NCBI GenBank assembly: GCA_017942165.1
Contig: JAGKSB010000001.1
Location: forward strand, 62,001-126,000
DNA length: 64,000 nt
Source: Rhinopithecimicrobium faecis
GTDB lineage: Bacteria; Bacteroidota; Bacteroidia; Sphingobacteriales; Sphingobacteriaceae
Direction: 5' to 3'
The notes beneath the pieces were generated by a model. The model ran no database searches. It saw only the letters and a list, made by a program, of their open reading frames with translations, and was not told the DNA's origin. Positions 53,527 through 62,443 of the stretch are shown here, one piece after another. Made by a program: the position numbers and the translations under genes. The stretch's first letter is position 1. Each line of letters starts with the position of its first letter.

Positions 53527-53571
53527 AGAGAATCAACTTAGTTTATGACTATAAAGAATGCGCTAAATGCG

Positions 53572-53579
53572 TATCTTTG
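53572..53579 (+). promoter_or_regulatory. trmD promoter -7 element, 4 bases from ATG
   Basis: TATCTTTG, then CAGC, then ATG. The expected transcription start falls on or beside the start codon, so a leaderless transcript is predicted. No -33 consensus at 19 bases. Confidence 0.6.
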
Positions 53580-53583
53580 CAGC

Positions 53584-54261
53584 ATGCGTTTTGATATTAT
53601 TACGGTACTTCCGAGTCTATTAGACAGCCCCTTTGCACACTCTATTCTACAGCGTGCACAAAATAAAGGTTTGGCAGAAATCCATGTGCACAATCTAAGA
53701 GATTATTCGACAAATAAGCAAAAGTCTGTAGATGACTACCCCTATGGTGGTGGCTCGGGCATGGTGATGCAAATCGAACCCTTTGCTGCTTGCATTGAAA
53801 AACTTCAAGCGGAGCGCAGCTACGATGAAATCATCTATATGACGCCAGATGGGGAGACGCTAAATCAAAAGATTGCTAACAACCTTTCTACAAAAGGAAA
53901 TATGATTATCCTTTGTGGTCACTACAAAGGTATTGACCAGCGTATTCGCGATGTCTTTGTAACAAAAGAGATTTCCATTGGTGACTATGTGCTTTCCGGA
54001 GGTGAACTTCCAGCAGCGATTTTAACAGATGCAATTATCCGTTTGATTCCTGGTGTACTTTCGGACGAGACTTCAGCCCTTTCAGATTCATTTCAAGATG
54101 GCCTTTTAGATTCACCGATTTATACCAGACCGAAAGAATGGCGCGGTCATAAAGTTCCTGACATCCTACTTTCAGGCCATGAGGCAAAAATTGCTGCTTG
54201 GCGTGATGAGCAACAACTGGCCAGAACGAGAGAACGCCGACCAGATTTATTAAATGATTAA
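53584..54261 (+). CDS. trmD: tRNA (guanine-N1)-methyltransferase
   Basis: A 225-residue SPOUT methyltransferase that makes m1G37 in tRNAs to prevent frameshifting. The frame is open 13 codons further upstream, but TrmD proteins begin at [20 protein letters not shown] and the upstream part contains the promoter box, so this start is used. Family signatures are [19 protein letters not shown], the knot loop [15 protein letters not shown] and [16 protein letters not shown]. The usual rpsP-rimM-trmD-rplS grouping is absent here. Confidence 0.96.
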
Positions 54262-54298: not shown

Positions 54299-54328
54299 TT
54301 TGCAATACCAATTTTTTTTATAAATTTG
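54299..54328 (+). promoter_or_regulatory. Promoter of the trp leader and trpEGC
   Basis: TTTG, 18 bases, TAAATTTG: both elements match the Bacteroidota consensus, with the spacer one short of 19. The -7 box ends 7 bases before the leader ATG, so the leader mRNA is nearly or fully leaderless. Confidence 0.8.
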
Positions 54329-54335
54329 TGATACA

Positions 54336-54398
54336 ATGAAAATGAGCAATACAAATACAAGTTGGTGGTGGCCTGAAGCAATAAGCGTCGGGACATAA
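54336..54398 (+). CDS. trpL: Trp operon leader peptide
   Basis: A 20-codon reading frame encoding MKMSNTNTSWWWPEAISVGT with three consecutive Trp codons at 54363-54371, upstream of trpE. Runs of the regulated amino acid are the hallmark of attenuator leader peptides. The codons for Ser-Val-Gly near the end contain CGTCGGG, identical to the 3' arm of the downstream terminator. The frame ends 55 bases before the terminator stem. Translation would couple tryptophan supply to terminator formation. Confidence 0.9.
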   Translation: MKMSNTNTSWWWPEAISVGT

Positions 54399-54477
54399 CT
54401 TGTGTTTACATAATATTTCATAATCAACCAAAACCATTTGTGGAAATTATAGCCCGACGATCCCCCGTCGGGTTTTT
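54386..54477 (+). promoter_or_regulatory. Trp attenuator: antiterminator and terminator
   Basis: The terminator stem is CCCGACG (54453-54459) with CGTCGGG (54466-54472), loop ATCCCC, then five T. The segment CGTCGGG at 54386-54392, inside trpL, can pair with the same CCCGACG. It extends by four more pairs (ATAA with TTAT) beyond a 2x2 mismatch, forming the antiterminator. An additional pairing of AATACAAGTT (54354-54363) with AACTTGTGTT (54397-54406) can form the upstream 1:2-type hairpin. A ribosome stalled at the Trp codons leaves 54386 free; one that reaches the stop covers it. Confidence 0.88.
54453..54477 (+). terminator. Attenuator terminator before trpE
   Basis: A 7-bp GC-rich stem with a 6-base loop and TTTTT, 33 bases before the trpE ATG. 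It is the conditional part of the attenuator. Confidence 0.9.
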
Positions 54478-54510
54478 CTATTTTAGGACTCTTTTAAAAA
54501 TATTATTAGT

Positions 54511-55917
54511 ATGAAATTTAACTTTAACACCAAATACACGCAACTCCTAGCAGACACCACAACACCCGTGAGTATCTACCTACGTATGCGTGATGTATTC
54601 CCGAATAGCCTACTGCTGGAGAGCTCGGAATACCAATCCCGTGATAATAACATCTCCTATATCTGTTGCCAGCCTATTGCCGGCATCGTCTTAGATAAGC
54701 AGGAGCTACGCATTGACTACCCACAGCAGGAAACAATTGTTAAGCCCCGTGGAGCGATAAATCTGAAGGAGGAGGTTTCTACCTTCCGTAAAGCATTTTC
54801 CAATGACCCTTTAGACCCTAGCATCCAAGTGATAAATAATGGTCTTTTCGGCTATTTCTCCTTCGACAGTATTGAGCATTTTGAAGATATAAAACTTACT
54901 AAAGAGCAAGATCCAGCGAAAGAAATCCCTTTCTTGCAATATCATATTTACAAATATGTGATCGCCATTGATCACTTCCGTAATCAGCTTTATATCTTCG
55001 AACATCTCTTAGAAGATGAAAAATCAGAGCTTGAAAAAATTCAATACCTGATACAGAATAAAAATTTCCCAGAGTACTCTTTTGCCACGAAAAGTGCGGA
55101 GCAATCGACGATGACGGATCAGGAATTTAGAGATTTAGTCGTGAAGATGAAGGAGCATATCCAGCGTGGTGACGTCTTTCAGATTGTGCCTTCAAGAGGC
55201 TTCTCTACCGCTTTTGAAGGGGACGAATTTAATGTTTACCGCGCACTGCGCTCCATAAACCCCTCTCCATACTTATTCTACTTTGACTTCGGCGACTTCA
55301 AGCTCTTTGGCTCCTCACCTGAAGCACAGCTAACGATAAAAGATGAGGTTGCCTCCATCTTCCCTATTGCTGGAACTTTCAAGCGTACAGGAAATATTGA
55401 GCAAGATAAATTAGTCGCTCAAGACCTACAGAATGACCCTAAAGAGTCGGCTGAACATGTTATGTTAGTAGACCTCGCACGCAATGATTTGAGTAGACAT
55501 TGCACGGAGGTATCGGTAAAATCCTATAAGGAAGCACAATATTACTCGCACGTCATACACTTAGTATCTAAAGTATCGGGAAAATTACTCCCTGGAGCTT
55601 CCCCTTTTGATGTGGTGGGCGACACCTACCCTGCAGGCACGCTGTCCGGCGCTCCCAAGCATATGGCACTAACGCTGATCGACCGCTATGAAAAGCAACA
55701 GCGCTCCTTCTATTCTGGCGCCCTTGGATATATGGGGTTTAATGGAGATTTCAACCATGCCATTATGATACGCTCCTTTTTGAGTAAGCGCAATGTCCTC
55801 CACTATCAGGCTGGCGCAGGGATCGTCTTAGACTCGGATCCAGAAAAAGAATTACAAGAAGTAAATAATAAAATTGCGGCATTACGAAAGGCCTTAACCT
55901 TAGCTGAAACTATTTAA
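54511..55917 (+). CDS. trpE: Anthranilate synthase component I
   Basis: A 468-residue enzyme that converts chorismate and ammonia to anthranilate, using glutamine through TrpG. The N-terminal tryptophan feedback element LLESSEYQS is present near residue 30. Catalytic blocks are FQIVPSRGFSTAFEGDEF, GSSPEAQLTIKD, IFPIAGTFKRTG, PAGTLSGAPKHMAL and YQAGAGIVLDSDPEKELQEV. It is controlled by the trpL attenuator and is 1 base from trpG. Confidence 0.96.
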   Translation: MKFNFNTKYTQLLADTTTPVSIYLRMRDVFPNSLLLESSEYQSRDNNISYICCQPIAGIVLDKQELRIDYPQQETIVKPRGAINLKEEVSTFRKAFSNDPLDPSIQVINNGLFGYFSFDSIEHFEDIKLTKEQDPAKEIPFLQYHIYKYVIAIDHFRNQLYIFEHLLEDEKSELEKIQYLIQNKNFPEYSFATKSAEQSTMTDQEFRDLVVKMKEHIQRGDVFQIVPSRGFSTAFEGDEFNVYRALRSINPSPYLFYFDFGDFKLFGSSPEAQLTIKDEVASIFPIAGTFKRTGNIEQDKLVAQDLQNDPKESAEHVMLVDLARNDLSRHCTEVSVKSYKEAQYYSHVIHLVSKVSGKLLPGASPFDVVGDTYPAGTLSGAPKHMALTLIDRYEKQQRSFYSGALGYMGFNGDFNHAIMIRSFLSKRNVLHYQAGAGIVLDSDPEKELQEVNNKIAALRKALTLAETI

Positions 55918-55918
55918 G

Positions 55919-56494
55919 ATGAAAAATTCAACTATTTTAGTGATCGACAACTACGACTCTTTTACCTACAACTTAGTGCATTTACTACAGGAGTGTGGTC
56001 AAGAATATACTGTATGGAGAAATGATAAATTCAAGATCGAAGATGTCGCAGCCTTTGATAAGATTCTGCTGTCTCCAGGACCCGGTATTCCTGAGGAGGC
56101 GGGCCTTTTATTAGAGGTTATACGCACCTATGCTCCTACGAAGAGTATCCTGGGGATTTGCTTAGGCTTACAAGCGATTGCTGAGGTGTTCGGTGGAAAG
56201 CTTTACAACCTGGCAAAACCCTTACATGGCGTCGCTACAGACTTAATTATTACCGATGAGACGGAGCCCCTATTTCAAGGGTATGCGCAGCATGCTAAAA
56301 TTGCACGTTACCACTCTTGGGCCGTTGCTAAAGAGAGTCTCCCGGCGGTATTAAAGGTTACTGCTGAAGATGAGCACGGCGTAATTATGGCCCTTACACA
56401 CCGTGACTTAGATATCCGTGGTATGCAGTTCCACCCGGAGTCCATCCTGACGGAAAATGGAAAACGACTCATTGAAAACTGGATTAATAACTAG
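55919..56494 (+). CDS. trpG: Anthranilate synthase component II, glutamine amidotransferase
   Basis: A 191-residue class I amidotransferase. The triad is visible as Cys in GICLGLQAIAEVFGG and His-Glu in GMQFHPESILTENG. LVIDNYDSFTYNLVHLLQE and LSPGPGIPEEAG are TrpG/PabA signatures. Direct coupling to trpE supports TrpG; use for p-aminobenzoate synthesis as well cannot be excluded. Confidence 0.96.
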   Translation: MKNSTILVIDNYDSFTYNLVHLLQECGQEYTVWRNDKFKIEDVAAFDKILLSPGPGIPEEAGLLLEVIRTYAPTKSILGICLGLQAIAEVFGGKLYNLAKPLHGVATDLIITDETEPLFQGYAQHAKIARYHSWAVAKESLPAVLKVTAEDEHGVIMALTHRDLDIRGMQFHPESILTENGKRLIENWINN

Positions 56495-56496
56495 CC

Positions 56497-57279
56497 ATGA
56501 CTATACTAGATAAAATTGTTGCAAGAAAGAAAGTGGAGGTCGCTGAAGCGAAGATTAGAGTTTCACTAGCAGAACTGGAAGGTTACCCCCTTTTCAAGCG
56601 TACATGCTACTCCCTTCAAGAGTCTGCAGCCACAGCAGGACGCACGGGAATTATTGCTGAATATAAAAGAGCCTCCCCTTCAAAAGGGCTGATCAACGGC
56701 ACCTCAACGGTACAAGATGTCGTAAAGGGCTATCAAGATGCTGGGGCTATTGCAATCTCTGTATTGACAGATTCGGACTTCTTTCAGGGCTCCCTCGCCG
56801 ACTTAAGCGCAGCACGTGAAGTGCTTAGCATCCCTTTATTGCGGAAGGAATTTATTGTTGACAGCTACCAGATTGCCGAAGCGAAAGCTTATGGTGCAGA
56901 TATCATCCTTTTAATTGCAGCCTGCCTGTCCGATGAAGAGCTTACAGCATTAGCACATTATGCCAAATCACTCGGCTTAAATATCCTCTTGGAGGTGCAC
57001 GATGAAGCAGAATTAAACCGCAGCTTACACCTTCCTGTAGATGCAATTGGGGTGAATAATAGAAACTTAAAAGATTTTGTTGTTACCCTGGATCATTCTT
57101 ATTCCCTGGTCAATAAAATTCCCGCTACTGTATTGAAAGTTTCGGAATCGGGCATCTCAGATCCCAAAACCATCCGGGAGCTTAAAGAAGCCGGGTTTCA
57201 GGCTTTTTTAATCGGTGAAAATTTTATGAAGACTTCAGACCCTGCTTTTGCCATACAATCATTTGTGAAAGAAATTTAA
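56497..57279 (+). CDS. trpC: Indole-3-glycerol phosphate synthase
   Basis: A 260-residue TIM barrel that closes the indole ring. IIAEYKRASPSKGLI, LLRKEFIVDSYQIAEAKAYG, LEVHDEAELNRSL and GVNNRNLKDF are family signatures with the catalytic Lys and Glu residues. It is 2 bases after trpG. trpD, which usually sits between trpG and trpC, and trpF, trpB and trpA are not here, so the pathway is split over more than one locus. Confidence 0.96.
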   Translation: MTILDKIVARKKVEVAEAKIRVSLAELEGYPLFKRTCYSLQESAATAGRTGIIAEYKRASPSKGLINGTSTVQDVVKGYQDAGAIAISVLTDSDFFQGSLADLSAAREVLSIPLLRKEFIVDSYQIAEAKAYGADIILLIAACLSDEELTALAHYAKSLGLNILLEVHDEAELNRSLHLPVDAIGVNNRNLKDFVVTLDHSYSLVNKIPATVLKVSESGISDPKTIRELKEAGFQAFLIGENFMKTSDPAFAIQSFVKEI

Positions 57280-57341: not shown

Positions 57342-57857
57342 TTGGAAAAAGATATATTTACAATAAATAAAGCTAGCTTCGAGCAAATATACCTTCAACA
57401 TTGGGAAGGTATGTTTGCTTATTGCTTAAAGAATATTCAGGACGAAGATCTAGCCAAAGAGATTGTGCAAGAAGTGTTCAAATCCCTATGGGAACGACGC
57501 GAAAAATTGGAAATTAATGAGGTAGACCGCTACTTGATTCGATCCGTAAAGCTAAAGACTTTCGAATATATTCGTAACAGGCAGACAAGACAACAACATC
57601 ACGAAAAAATAAGCATTCAAACGCAAACTCATTATTCCGAAGATCATCTCGTCACGGATGAACTATCCCTTCAGATAACAAAGCTCATAAACAACTTACC
57701 GAAACAATGTAAAAATGTGTTTAATATGAGCCGAAATCAAGGACTCACCAATAAAGAAATCGCTCGACAATTATATATTTCTGAAAGGGCTGTAGAGTAT
57801 CATATTTCTAAGGCTTTACATACCCTTAGGATAGAACTAGATAAATATATTCACTGA
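57342..57857 (+). CDS. ECF-type RNA polymerase sigma factor
   Basis: A 171-residue sigma factor with only regions 2 and 4. Region 2 is around LQHWEGMFAYCLKNIQDEDL and AKEIVQEVFKSLWERREKL. Region 4 is LPKQCKNVFNMSRNQGLTNK followed by EIARQLYISERAVEYHISKA. It is of the Bacteroidota FecI-like kind, usually paired with a FecR anti-sigma and a TonB receptor, as here. The start is a TTG; no ATG lies near enough to replace it. It probably drives the downstream uptake genes. Confidence 0.9.
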   Translation: MEKDIFTINKASFEQIYLQHWEGMFAYCLKNIQDEDLAKEIVQEVFKSLWERREKLEINEVDRYLIRSVKLKTFEYIRNRQTRQQHHEKISIQTQTHYSEDHLVTDELSLQITKLINNLPKQCKNVFNMSRNQGLTNKEIARQLYISERAVEYHISKALHTLRIELDKYIH

Positions 57858-57886
57858 TGAAAATTCCTAGTATTAAAGTATTTATG

Positions 57887-57894
57887 TATTTTTG
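57887..57894 (+). promoter_or_regulatory. Putative promoter -7 element before the anti-sigma-like gene
   Basis: TATTTTTG is a full match, ending 12 bases before the preferred ATG. It overlaps an alternative TTG start, which argues against that start. Confidence 0.45.
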
Positions 57895-57906
57895 TTAGCG
57901 CCATCA

Positions 57907-58548
57907 ATGAATATGAAAATAGATTACAAGGTCATAGAACGCTATCATTTAAACCAATGCACACCCCAGGAACGTCTGATGGTGGAACAATGGCTAGATG
58001 AGGGATTGGATGATTTTGAGACGCCATTCGCTACTGTAAATGAAAAAAAACAAGTAGGCGAAGAAATTTGGAATGAGCTGCATGCCTTTATGGAGGAAGA
58101 CACCAATAGGCCAAAGACTAAAAATCTATTTTCTTTTAAAAGAGTAAGCGTGGCAGCCGCTATACTAGCTATAGTTAGTTTAGCTGCTATAACCCTTAAA
58201 AATAATGCTCATTTCTCAGACGCCTTATTTGACAATAGCACTAACAGCAATTTAAAATACATTGACAAGAATAATTACGAACTAATCTTGGGAAGCTATG
58301 CTTCGGCAAGGGTGAATATAAAAACTGGCGTCTTCGATACATCAGGAGATATAATGCTGATACCTAAAAAAGATTTTCTATTTAGCTTTTCCAAAAATAG
58401 CGTCAAGAAAGCCTTAAAAAATGGCGAAATTTACTTTTTGCTTAAATCATCAAGTATTGGAAGACCAATTATAATATCCAAAACAGAATTAACATTCTTA
58501 GCGCCTACTATTCAACAGCAATTAAAAATGCAATTTAATATCAGCTAA
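57907..58548 (+). CDS. Short FecR-like anti-sigma candidate
   Basis: A 213-residue protein right after the sigma gene. The N-terminal 55 residues (KVIERYHLNQCTPQERLMVE followed by QWLDEGLDDFE) resemble the cytoplasmic anti-sigma part of FecR proteins. One membrane helix is seen near residues 80-97 (VAAAILAIVSLAAITL). The periplasmic part is only about 115 residues, whereas Bacteroidota FecR proteins have a FecR domain plus a further C-terminal domain, 320-390 residues in total. It may therefore be a reduced or different type. An upstream TTG start (57892) is possible but overlaps a promoter box. Confidence 0.65.
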   Translation: MNMKIDYKVIERYHLNQCTPQERLMVEQWLDEGLDDFETPFATVNEKKQVGEEIWNELHAFMEEDTNRPKTKNLFSFKRVSVAAAILAIVSLAAITLKNNAHFSDALFDNSTNSNLKYIDKNNYELILGSYASARVNIKTGVFDTSGDIMLIPKKDFLFSFSKNSVKKALKNGEIYFLLKSSSIGRPIIISKTELTFLAPTIQQQLKMQFNIS

Positions 58549-58585
58549 TTCTCTTCATTAGTACATTTATGTTATCAAAAAAATC

Positions 58586-59794
58586 ATGCAGCAAAAAAAA
58601 GTTTTATTTGCGCTCTTACTGATTATTTGTTGTTTTATGACTAGCTGCACGGAGCAAGCTACAACAAGGCAAACTCAGGGGAAATACAGTCTTTTTACTA
58701 TGAATAAAGATTTGGGAAATACCTTGCTTATAACCGATAACATCTCCTCAGACTCCTTAGCAATCAATCCCCACGGAATCACTGTACCCAACACCGACTT
58801 CGACCGCAGTGTGATTGTGCACAAAGGATATTATTATCAGATTGATGCCATCAATGAAGTCTTCGCGAAATATAAGTTAACACCCAAAGGTGTCGAGAAA
58901 GTTGATCAGCTTCCAATGGTGAATAGGCATATTGAAAATGTTAGTTGGCTGAGTCCTGATACATTATTCTTAATAACCCTTGATGACAAAAGTTACAGCT
59001 ACATAAATTATTATATTATTGCTGTCAATGATTTCAAAATCGTCAAGCAAGGACAAATTAATCTGCCGATAGATAATCCAGAATTCCCTATTATATCCAT
59101 TGGATTTAGTATTATAAAAAATAGCAAACTTCTAATAGGCTACTGCTTCAATAAAATCTATAACACGACTGATTTCACGACGAGTGATTATATGTATTTA
59201 GCGGAAATAGACACCACAAATATGCAGGTTGAAAAGATCCTGAAAGATGCACGTTCTTCCTACCCTGGAGGGATTAATACCGTGCAGTCTTACAGTTTTA
59301 AAGATTCCTCCGGTGATTTCTATTTTATGAGCTGCCCAGGTGTTGCTTTAGGAAATAACACAAAAATGCCAACGGCTATTTTTAGAATAAAAGATAAGGC
59401 ATCGATTATAGATCCTACATATATGATAAATCTTTCCGAAAAGACAGGAAATCATGCTTATGGCTTTTGGTTCTTGGGGAAGGATCAGGCAATAATACGT
59501 TCAGAAAGAAAAGACTTATATACCGATTTTTCCGACCATCACTCAACATATCAGTTTGAATACTACCTAATAAATTTAAAAAGTCAGGAGATAGCTAAAT
59601 TAGCGCTGCCATATGATAAAGGCACTCGCAAGGAATCCGTACTTGTTAGCAACAATAAAGCATATATTACAATTGACGATAAAGATGATAATCATCAGGT
59701 ATGGATCTATGATATACTAACAAGAAAAATTAGTGAAGGATTAAAACTTGATAATCAAGTAGATTTTATTGTTAGAATAGACAAGTTCAATTAA
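58586..59794 (+). CDS. DUF4374-like lipoprotein (first copy)
   Basis: A 402-residue lipoprotein with lipobox TSC (Cys near residue 21). The body looks like a beta-propeller of the DUF4374 kind: KYSLFTMNKDLGNTLLITDN, GYYYQIDAINEVFAKYKLTP, VSWLSPDTLFLITLDD and YFMSCPGVALGNNTKMPTAI. It is clearly related to the copy at 62464, sharing the fragment MPTxxFRIKDxxxxxDPxYxxN. DUF4374 genes often sit beside TonB receptors and PepSY proteins in iron-uptake loci; the molecular role is unknown. Confidence 0.75.
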   Translation: MQQKKVLFALLLIICCFMTSCTEQATTRQTQGKYSLFTMNKDLGNTLLITDNISSDSLAINPHGITVPNTDFDRSVIVHKGYYYQIDAINEVFAKYKLTPKGVEKVDQLPMVNRHIENVSWLSPDTLFLITLDDKSYSYINYYIIAVNDFKIVKQGQINLPIDNPEFPIISIGFSIIKNSKLLIGYCFNKIYNTTDFTTSDYMYLAEIDTTNMQVEKILKDARSSYPGGINTVQSYSFKDSSGDFYFMSCPGVALGNNTKMPTAIFRIKDKASIIDPTYMINLSEKTGNHAYGFWFLGKDQAIIRSERKDLYTDFSDHHSTYQFEYYLINLKSQEIAKLALPYDKGTRKESVLVSNNKAYITIDDKDDNHQVWIYDILTRKISEGLKLDNQVDFIVRIDKFN

Positions 59795-59838
59795 TAAAAC
59801 AACATTAATCTTCAAGAAGATAAACTTGAAAACCCCTT

Positions 59839-59879
59839 TAAAAGCTACCACTTTCATAATAGAATGGTAGCTTTTTTTA
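59839..59879 (+). terminator. Terminator after the first DUF4374 gene
   Basis: AAAGCTACCA pairs with TGGTAGCTTT, with an extra TTC/GAA pairing in the loop, and is followed by TTTT. It separates the sigma-proximal genes from the receptor gene. Confidence 0.85.
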
Positions 59880-60046
59880 TATCCCTGTAATTTCAGAAAA
59901 TTACACTCGCTAAAGCGCAAATTAATAAGCTTGATTATCAACGCATTACGCAACAAAAACTTATCCTAGAAATTATTTTAAGATTTAACCTTCGGTAAAA
60001 GGAAGATTAGGCAACATACTTATGTATAATCAATCTAAATAAGGTA

Positions 60047-62443
60047 ATGTTAAAATTAAATACGATATGCTTAACTCTTTTAATCATCCTTTCTCTCCCA
60101 GCTTTCGCCCAACAAGGCACACTAATTGGTAAGCTGACGAATCACAAGAGTCAGCCTATTGATGGCGCTTCCATACGCATAGCAGCGACTACGAAAGGCA
60201 CCCTTACGGATAAAAATGGATTATTCTTCTTTAAGAGTCTACCTTATGGAAGATATACGATCCATATCTCGGCAGTAGGCTACAAAACAAAAGAGTTGCA
60301 AATAAACCTGCAAGAGAAATTAGAAAATTCACTGAATATCGCTCTTACTGAAAATCCAAATACCTTAGCGGAAGTTCAAATCCAAGGGAAGACTGTCGCT
60401 CGGAAAATTAAGGAAACAGGTTTTAATGTCAACGTCATAGAGACTAAACGGTTTGCAAATACGAATACTGATATCAACCAAATTTTAAACCGAAGTACTG
60501 GAATACGTATTCGTCAACAAGGAGGATTAGGTTCTAACTACAGCTTTTCACTAAATGGTCTTTCCGGGGATCACGTAAAATTTTTTATTGATGGGATACC
60601 AATAGAATCCTACGGATCGGGAATGTCATTTAATAATATGCCCGTAAATCTTGCGGAGCGTATTGAAGTATATAAGGGCGTAGTACCCGCTCATCTAGGT
60701 TCTGACGCCCTAGGAGGAGCAATAAATATTGTAACCAATCGTGATAAAGTAAAATTTATAGATGCCAGCTATAGTTATGGCTCTTTCAACACACACCGAG
60801 CTGCGTTAAGTGCAGGAAGGAAATTTAATAAATCCGGTTTAAATTTAAATGTGAACACTTATTATAATTACTCCAACAATGATTATCGAATGAGGACTAA
60901 TCCAAAGGCCAATATTTATTTAGAAGTTCCCTCCAAAACCGTTCCCAATCAATTGGACACCATCCGTTCAGCCAGACGCTTTCATGATAATTATGAGTCC
61001 TTTATGACACAGGTAGAATTGGGTGTCCATAATAAGAAATATGCGGATATTGCTGTTGTAGGACTAACATTTAATCAAGTAAATAATCAAGTACAGACTG
61101 GAGCAACGCAAGAGAAAGTAATAGGGGGCATACAACACAGCAGCAATAGTTTTACACCTAGCATACGCTACCGTAAAGAACATTTTTTACTGAAGAATTT
61201 ATCAGCGAGTCTCTTTTCAAACTTTTCTACGAGTAAATCAATAATCACAGATACAAGTTCCATTAATTATTATTACTGGGATGGGAGTACATTCGGGCTG
61301 AGCAAGACCCAAGGGGAGTTAAATGTTAAATCTATTCGTCATCAAAAAATAAATAATAGTTTTTCTCAAGTAAATTTAAACTATCAACTAAGGCCTCAAC
61401 ATGTATTCGCTTTAAATTATAATTTAAAAACTAACGATCGAGAAGAATATAACGAGATCGATCCCTATAATGATACCTTCAATAAGACAAATAGAATTAC
61501 TCAACATATCGTCGGGTTGAACTATCAACAAATCCTATTGAAAGGTAGATTAAACAACTCCTTCTTTTTAAAAAGATATACGCTGGCGGGAAATTCAACG
61601 GCTAACGATAATAACTCAAATAGAGAAGCTAGATCTTACACTGGTTATGGAGCGGCTACAAACTACCGTATAATCCGCCATGGGGGCGTTAAGCTTTCCT
61701 ATGAGCATGCCTATCGCCTTCCGTCCTTCACAGAACTCTTTGGCAATGGCATTGAAGTGATTGGAAATCCCAATCTAGAGCCCGCAAATAGTGATAACTA
61801 CAACCTAGGACTCTATTATAAATTCCACTTGAAAGACCACGCCTTTAGTGTTGAGGCATCCACTTTTTATCGCAATGCCAAGAATTATATCATTACCACT
61901 CGTTACAGTGATGCTGAAAGAAACTATTCCTACTCCAGAAACGAAGGAGGCATAAAGGTCAATGGCGCAGACTTCGAAATTAAATATGACTATAAGGGCC
62001 TATTACAAGCTATGGTCAATATGAGTTATTATAATGCCGTAGATAGAGCGCGCTTTGTGGAGGGCACAAATCGGGAGAAGATCACCTATAATAGCCGTAC
62101 GCCAAATGAACCTTGGCTATTTGGAAACGCCGATATCAGCACGGGATTTAACAATCTTTTCGGCACAAAGCACACACGCTTACAGTTCAATTATTATTTA
62201 CAATTCGTAAATAACTATTCCCTTTCCTGGTCTAAACTAGGAGATAAAAGAACGAAAGACTATATCCCAGAGCAGTGGCTACATAACCTAGCAATTAGCT
62301 ATTCGTTAAAACAAAACAAGTACCATATCACAGTAGAAGGTCATAATCTCAGCAATGAAATTGCCTATGATGTATTCAAACAACAACGTCCCGGAAGATC
62401 CATATTTGTGAAATTAAGATATAGCTTACAATCCTTCAAATAA
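60047..62443 (+). CDS. TonB-dependent receptor
   Basis: A 798-residue outer membrane receptor, smaller than SusC. A signal peptide ends near AFAQ. It has a carboxypeptidase-regulatory-like N-terminal domain (GTLIGKLTNHKSQPIDGASI) and a plug with NQILNRSTGIRIRQQGGLGS, FFIDGIPIESYGSG and HLGSDALGGAINIVTN. The barrel ends GRSIFVKLRYSLQSF. Such receptors import iron complexes, heme or vitamins. With the ECF sigma factor, DUF4374 and PepSY neighbours an iron-related ligand is most likely, but the ligand cannot be read from sequence. Confidence 0.92.
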   Translation: MLKLNTICLTLLIILSLPAFAQQGTLIGKLTNHKSQPIDGASIRIAATTKGTLTDKNGLFFFKSLPYGRYTIHISAVGYKTKELQINLQEKLENSLNIALTENPNTLAEVQIQGKTVARKIKETGFNVNVIETKRFANTNTDINQILNRSTGIRIRQQGGLGSNYSFSLNGLSGDHVKFFIDGIPIESYGSGMSFNNMPVNLAERIEVYKGVVPAHLGSDALGGAINIVTNRDKVKFIDASYSYGSFNTHRAALSAGRKFNKSGLNLNVNTYYNYSNNDYRMRTNPKANIYLEVPSKTVPNQLDTIRSARRFHDNYESFMTQVELGVHNKKYADIAVVGLTFNQVNNQVQTGATQEKVIGGIQHSSNSFTPSIRYRKEHFLLKNLSASLFSNFSTSKSIITDTSSINYYYWDGSTFGLSKTQGELNVKSIRHQKINNSFSQVNLNYQLRPQHVFALNYNLKTNDREEYNEIDPYNDTFNKTNRITQHIVGLNYQQILLKGRLNNSFFLKRYTLAGNSTANDNNSNREARSYTGYGAATNYRIIRHGGVKLSYEHAYRLPSFTELFGNGIEVIGNPNLEPANSDNYNLGLYYKFHLKDHAFSVEASTFYRNAKNYIITTRYSDAERNYSYSRNEGGIKVNGADFEIKYDYKGLLQAMVNMSYYNAVDRARFVEGTNREKITYNSRTPNEPWLFGNADISTGFNNLFGTKHTRLQFNYYLQFVNNYSLSWSKLGDKRTKDYIPEQWLHNLAISYSLKQNKYHITVEGHNLSNEIAYDVFKQQRPGRSIFVKLRYSLQSFK

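Follow-up and report, generated by a model that had tools for sequence, protein, structure and literature searches.

Does the DNA between trmD and trpE sense tryptophan and, if it does, would such a switch be new to its phylum? In the window, that is, the whole stretch of 64,000 nucleotides that we analyzed, trmD (ORF 53545-54261) is the upstream neighbor of the trp leader, and the + strand between trmD and trpE carries a promoter, a 20-codon leader ORF and a terminator, in that order. The genes downstream are trpE, for anthranilate synthase component I (54511-55917), trpG, for the anthranilate synthase glutamine amidotransferase (55919-56494), and trpC, for indole-3-glycerol phosphate synthase (56497-57279), the last gene of this half operon, all of them on the + strand. 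The named relatives that we examined (L177-L256), among them Sphingobacterium, Parapedobacter, Olivibacter, Pedobacter and Mucilaginibacter, keep the trpE-G-C order. Further 3' of trpC, at 57342-62443 of the window, the translations show by eye ORFs resembling an ECF-type sigma factor, an anti-sigma factor and a TonB-dependent receptor. From the sequence of the leader and its comparison among relatives, we consider it highly probable that trpE-G-C is controlled by a ribosome-mediated, tryptophan-sensing transcription attenuator of the classical four-segment type.

A first-pass annotation of this DNA had described a near-consensus promoter ahead of the leader. We located it at 54299-54328 (+ strand) and, by its sequence and the published consensus, assigned it to the Bacteroidota type, with a -33 TTTG (54299-54302), an 18-nt spacer and a -7 box, TAAATTTG (54321-54328). 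As expected for a promoter of this type, a scan for E. coli sigma-70 promoters gave no match to it. Because TAnnTTTG is placed at -12 to -5 in the Bacteroidota consensus (PMC9723704, PMC7366714), transcription of the trp leader is predicted to start around 54333, three bases 5' of the ATG, and the leader ORF would be almost leaderless, with a 5' UTR of about 3 nt. Few mRNAs in the phylum have 5' UTRs this short: leaderless mRNAs account for 5.5% in F. psychrophilum, and 5' UTRs shorter than 10 nt for 3.7% in B. thetaiotaomicron (PMC9723704, PMC7366714). The box and the leader ATG were 6-10 nt apart in 77 of the 78 genus loci where a box was recognized; in the other genera, the spacing was 3-10 nt. 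Here and in all counts, genus refers to the genus-level group of the window genome, for which the name Sphingobacterium was taken from its named relatives.

The leader ORF (54336-54398, + strand) encodes the peptide MKMSNTNTSWWWPEAISVGT in 20 codons, has a second in-frame ATG at 54342 and ends in a stop codon at 54396-54398. It holds three Trp codons, TGGTGGTGG (54363-54371, + strand), which are the proposed sensor, and both the ORF and these codons agree with what had been read at first pass. The putative leader ORF is thus a short frame in which codons for the regulated amino acid stand in tandem, as in trp-type attenuators. The first-pass annotation had also proposed a comparison with relatives, so we gathered TrpE loci from 94 genus genomes and 151 family genomes and extracted their upstream regions. 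Tandem Trp codons lay 5' of trpE in all 85 genus loci examined. Using the ORF script alone, a short ORF with tandem Trp codons was detected in 83 of these 85 loci and in 65 of 71 loci from other genera, where shuffling predicts about 0.5 and 1, respectively; in the two genus loci missed by the script, the start of the ORF fell outside the extracted stretch and TGGTGGTGG was present.

Regarding the RNA structures, the 7-mer CGTCGGG had been reported to occur twice in the leader region, with both copies competing for the same CCCGACG, and we found both copies where described. One is segment 2 (54386-54392, + strand), the 5' arm of the antiterminator, which lies inside the leader ORF and pairs with 54453-54459. 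The other is the 3' arm of an intrinsic terminator (54451-54477, + strand) formed by segment 3 (CCCGACG, 54453-54459), a loop, segment 4 (CGTCGGG, 54466-54472) and a T-rich tail; a terminator scan also detected this stem (54451-54474) followed by a T-rich stretch. Folded in isolation, the terminator gave -17.6 kcal/mol (z -4.9). Shuffling the 115-nt leader produced the 7-mer 0.06% of the time, and in the 64-kb window CGTCGGG occurs three times and CCCGACG once. When the entire leader was folded, the minimum-energy structure contained a 1:2 hairpin (CCUGA:UCGGG), in which segment 1 (CCTGA, 54372-54376) pairs with TCGGG (54388-54392) and sequesters the antiterminator arm (54372-54392, + strand). 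Folding from 54360 or 54372 onward, which mimics the covering of the 5' part by a stalled ribosome, gave the 7-bp antiterminator. Hence, a terminator stands ahead of biosynthesis genes and an antiterminator uses its 5' arm; the 1:2, 2:3 and 3:4 pairings are predicted to be mutually exclusive and, since a 1:2 hairpin is also present, the leader has the full four-segment design known from E. coli.

By the usual ribosome footprints, segment 1 is covered and segment 2 left exposed when a ribosome sits on the Trp codons, and it is segment 2 that is covered when the ribosome sits at the stop codon. At low levels of charged tRNA-Trp, a ribosome would stall at 54363-54371 and cover segment 1, so that segment 2 (54386-54392) could pair with segment 3 (54453-54459) and allow read-through into trpE. 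With plentiful tryptophan, the ribosome would reach the stop codon at 54396-54398 and cover segment 2, or the 1:2 hairpin would re-form behind it, and the 3:4 terminator would then form. Read-through into trpE-G-C would in this way depend on tryptophan. The first-pass annotation had put forward the same sequence of events, from stalling to antiterminator and from stop codon to terminator; the geometry of the leader fits it, and the comparative test gave it further support. Some relatives have longer leader ORFs, with the stop codon about 25 nt beyond segment 2; there, occlusion by a ribosome at the stop is not a sufficient explanation, and the 1:2 hairpin must act.

We then counted pairs in an alignment of 71 distinct genus sequences, taking slid pairings as a control. 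The antiterminator was paired in 94.2% of cells, compared to 18-46% for slid pairings, and three of its pairs were altered on both sides, with 22 such cells, a value that no shuffle equaled. The terminator was paired in 98.7% of cells, with five pairs altered on both sides. As for the 1:2 hairpin, it was paired in 85.7% of cells (28-53% when slid), and its covariation in this alignment was not above that of shuffles; it is found in most relatives, with mean z values of about -1.4 in the genus and -1.2 in other genera. By the score of our script, the antiterminator was weak in several other genera. Single loci also carried compensatory changes: in L080, the segment 2 copy and the 5' arm of the terminator changed together (CGTCAG with CTGACG) and the 3' arm is still CGTCGGG, and L138 combines GCGCCGGG with CCCGGCGC. 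The main antiterminator change, from G-C to A-T, had 3-4 origins when mapped on a trpE tree built from 36 members of the genus; by alignment columns, the partner changed likewise in two of four independent pairs and never in the opposite direction, which with so few events is not significant. As to the covarying stems that the first-pass annotation suggested looking for, the pairing is kept and a few changes are compensatory, but the independent events are too few to reach significance.

The position of the pairing elements is also maintained. In almost all genus sequences, the segment 2 copy lies +19 to +24 nt past the first tandem Trp codon, despite their differing C-termini and stop codons. 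The residues after WWW vary among relatives, and in a clade with leaders ending in NRWWLLTK the stop codon precedes the antiterminator arm, which is nevertheless retained. Since the arm persists while the sequence and stop after WWW vary, the conserved entity is the RNA and not the end of the peptide.

The hairpin does sit between trmD and trpE, and one could argue that it is merely the terminator of trmD and that the short WWW ORF is a coincidence. We regard this as extremely improbable: a promoter intervenes between trmD and the hairpin, the WWW leader is retained in relatives, even at loci that have no trmD upstream, and the segment 2 copy is co-conserved with the terminator. Besides, bacteria in general are known to use leaders to control translation, and the leader could work mainly through occlusion or coupling at the trpE start instead of termination. 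We hold this to be very improbable as well, given that the intrinsic terminator before trpE is strong (z -4.9) and carries a T tract, that its 5' arm doubles as the partner of the antiterminator, and that the trpE start takes no part in the predicted pairings. Promoter, WWW leader ORF, predicted exclusive pairings, terminator before trpE and conservation in the family, all drawn from sequence and comparison, point to what is very probably a working leader-peptide attenuator.

Attenuation by the ribosome could be supplemented, and not replaced, by a second input. Between the antiterminator arm and the terminator lies a conserved block, TAATCAACCAAAACCA (54421-54436, + strand), most of which falls in the loop of a hairpin predicted at 54410-54450. 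It is near-invariant in the genus, and exact in most genus loci, while the flanking sequence varies, and of 68 leaders from other genera, 37 carried derivatives of it, compared to 1.2 expected by shuffling. It occurs once in the genome, where matches with two mismatches stayed at the level of the reversed-pattern control, and it is conserved as sequence rather than as a stem. These observations would suit an attenuator that senses tryptophan via the ribosome and also responds to a hypothetical factor recognizing TAATCAACCAAAACCA. However, the block is lost in a clade that keeps the WWW leader (L075, L097, L119 and L123), and it could instead be a pausing or spacing element, so we consider a two-input attenuator rather unlikely. 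We are similarly doubtful that the block is a sequence-specific recognition site, be it for an RNA-binding protein, a small RNA or as a polymerase pausing signal; if it were, trpE attenuation in Sphingobacteriaceae would have a second input beyond ribosome stalling.

Other roles proposed for the block failed as general explanations. A conserved stem around it was clear in about half of the lineages and absent from others. The best duplexes of the block often overlap the Trp codons, but they were no stronger than with shuffled versions of it (median p 0.225). The idea that the block mimics the anticodon arm of tRNA-Trp (CTCCAAAACC, L303) was also rejected, as distant relatives have TAATCAATTGTAAACC, without CCA. 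The anticodon arm of the tRNA-Trp gene at L303:1469-1540 holds CTCCAAAACC and has CCAAAACC in common with the block, probably by coincidence. In several members of family genus g4 (L082-L089), the TAA stop of the leader forms the first three bases of the conserved TAATCAACC block.

The first-pass annotation had been unable to confirm that leader-peptide attenuation was described for this lineage; for Bacteroidetes, such leaders are already on record. Vitreschak reportedly listed some attenuators from Bacteroidetes/Chlorobi in 2004. The Rfam family RF01692 (Bacteroid-trp, Bacteroidete tryptophan peptide leader RNA) was published in 2010 (PMC2864571), it was noted 5' of the F. psychrophilum trp operon in 2019 and likened to the E. 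coli trp leader (PMC6414381), and a map of transcription starts from 2021 gave strong clues for leader-peptide attenuation ahead of amino-acid operons (PMC9723704). In our survey, RF01692 matches were located 5' of trpD in Sphingobacterium and 5' of trpE in other families belonging to the class. Sites above its cut-off were found in only 12 of 94 genus genomes, and the best 30 genus loci by RF01692 score were all 5' of trpD, none of trpE. The trpE leader itself scored 31.8 bits, below the gathering cut-off of 49, and yet the model aligned to it in full (1-131) with AUG and UGGUGGUGG in register; it is therefore of a known kind, but not a formal RF01692 match. The gene context and layout that it has in common with the RF01692 leaders of other families hint at common descent, but the score is weak and the sequence short. 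The trpE attenuator is thus ordinary in kind, such switches having been predicted in the phylum since 2010, and it extends this phylum-level prediction to a form that the Rfam model misses.

The other trp genes of this genome, trpD-F-B-A, are found on a separate contig and are preceded by a WWW leader of their own (MKKNVVNNAWWWHNS, followed by a stop) and a terminator (G000 C30:80806-80933; L039:4829-4957). Therefore, each half of the split trp pathway has an attenuator to itself, and the one before trpD speaks for the reading given above for trpE. Like the trpE leader, the trpD leader combines a WWW peptide with a terminator ahead of the first gene; unlike it, it is RF01692-like in sequence (37.8 vs 31.8 bits), has no TAATCAACCAAAACCA block and, as read by eye in relatives, has a CACAAC/GTTGTG hairpin and a GGCAA-type antiterminator arm. 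A search of this genome for His leader peptides, by runs of five His codons, found none near a suitable ORF. The trpE leader provides a clean setting in which to test how transcription and translation are coupled in a phylum without Shine-Dalgarno sequences.

Compared with known systems, the trpE leader is, like RF01692, a Trp leader peptide RNA of Bacteroidetes, aligning ATG on ATG and WWW on WWW, but it differs in the sequence of its antiterminator and terminator, in a shorter 5' UTR and in the conserved block TAATCAACCAAAACCA, which is not part of the RF01692 consensus and is missing from the trpD leaders. With E. coli trpL it shares the Trp codons of a leader peptide, four competing RNA segments and a terminator before trpE. 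There is no recognizable sequence relation between the two, as compared through the Rfam scan only, and the trpE leader departs from trpL in its Bacteroidota promoter, its almost leaderless ORF and a segment 1 placed just after the Trp codons and not over them.
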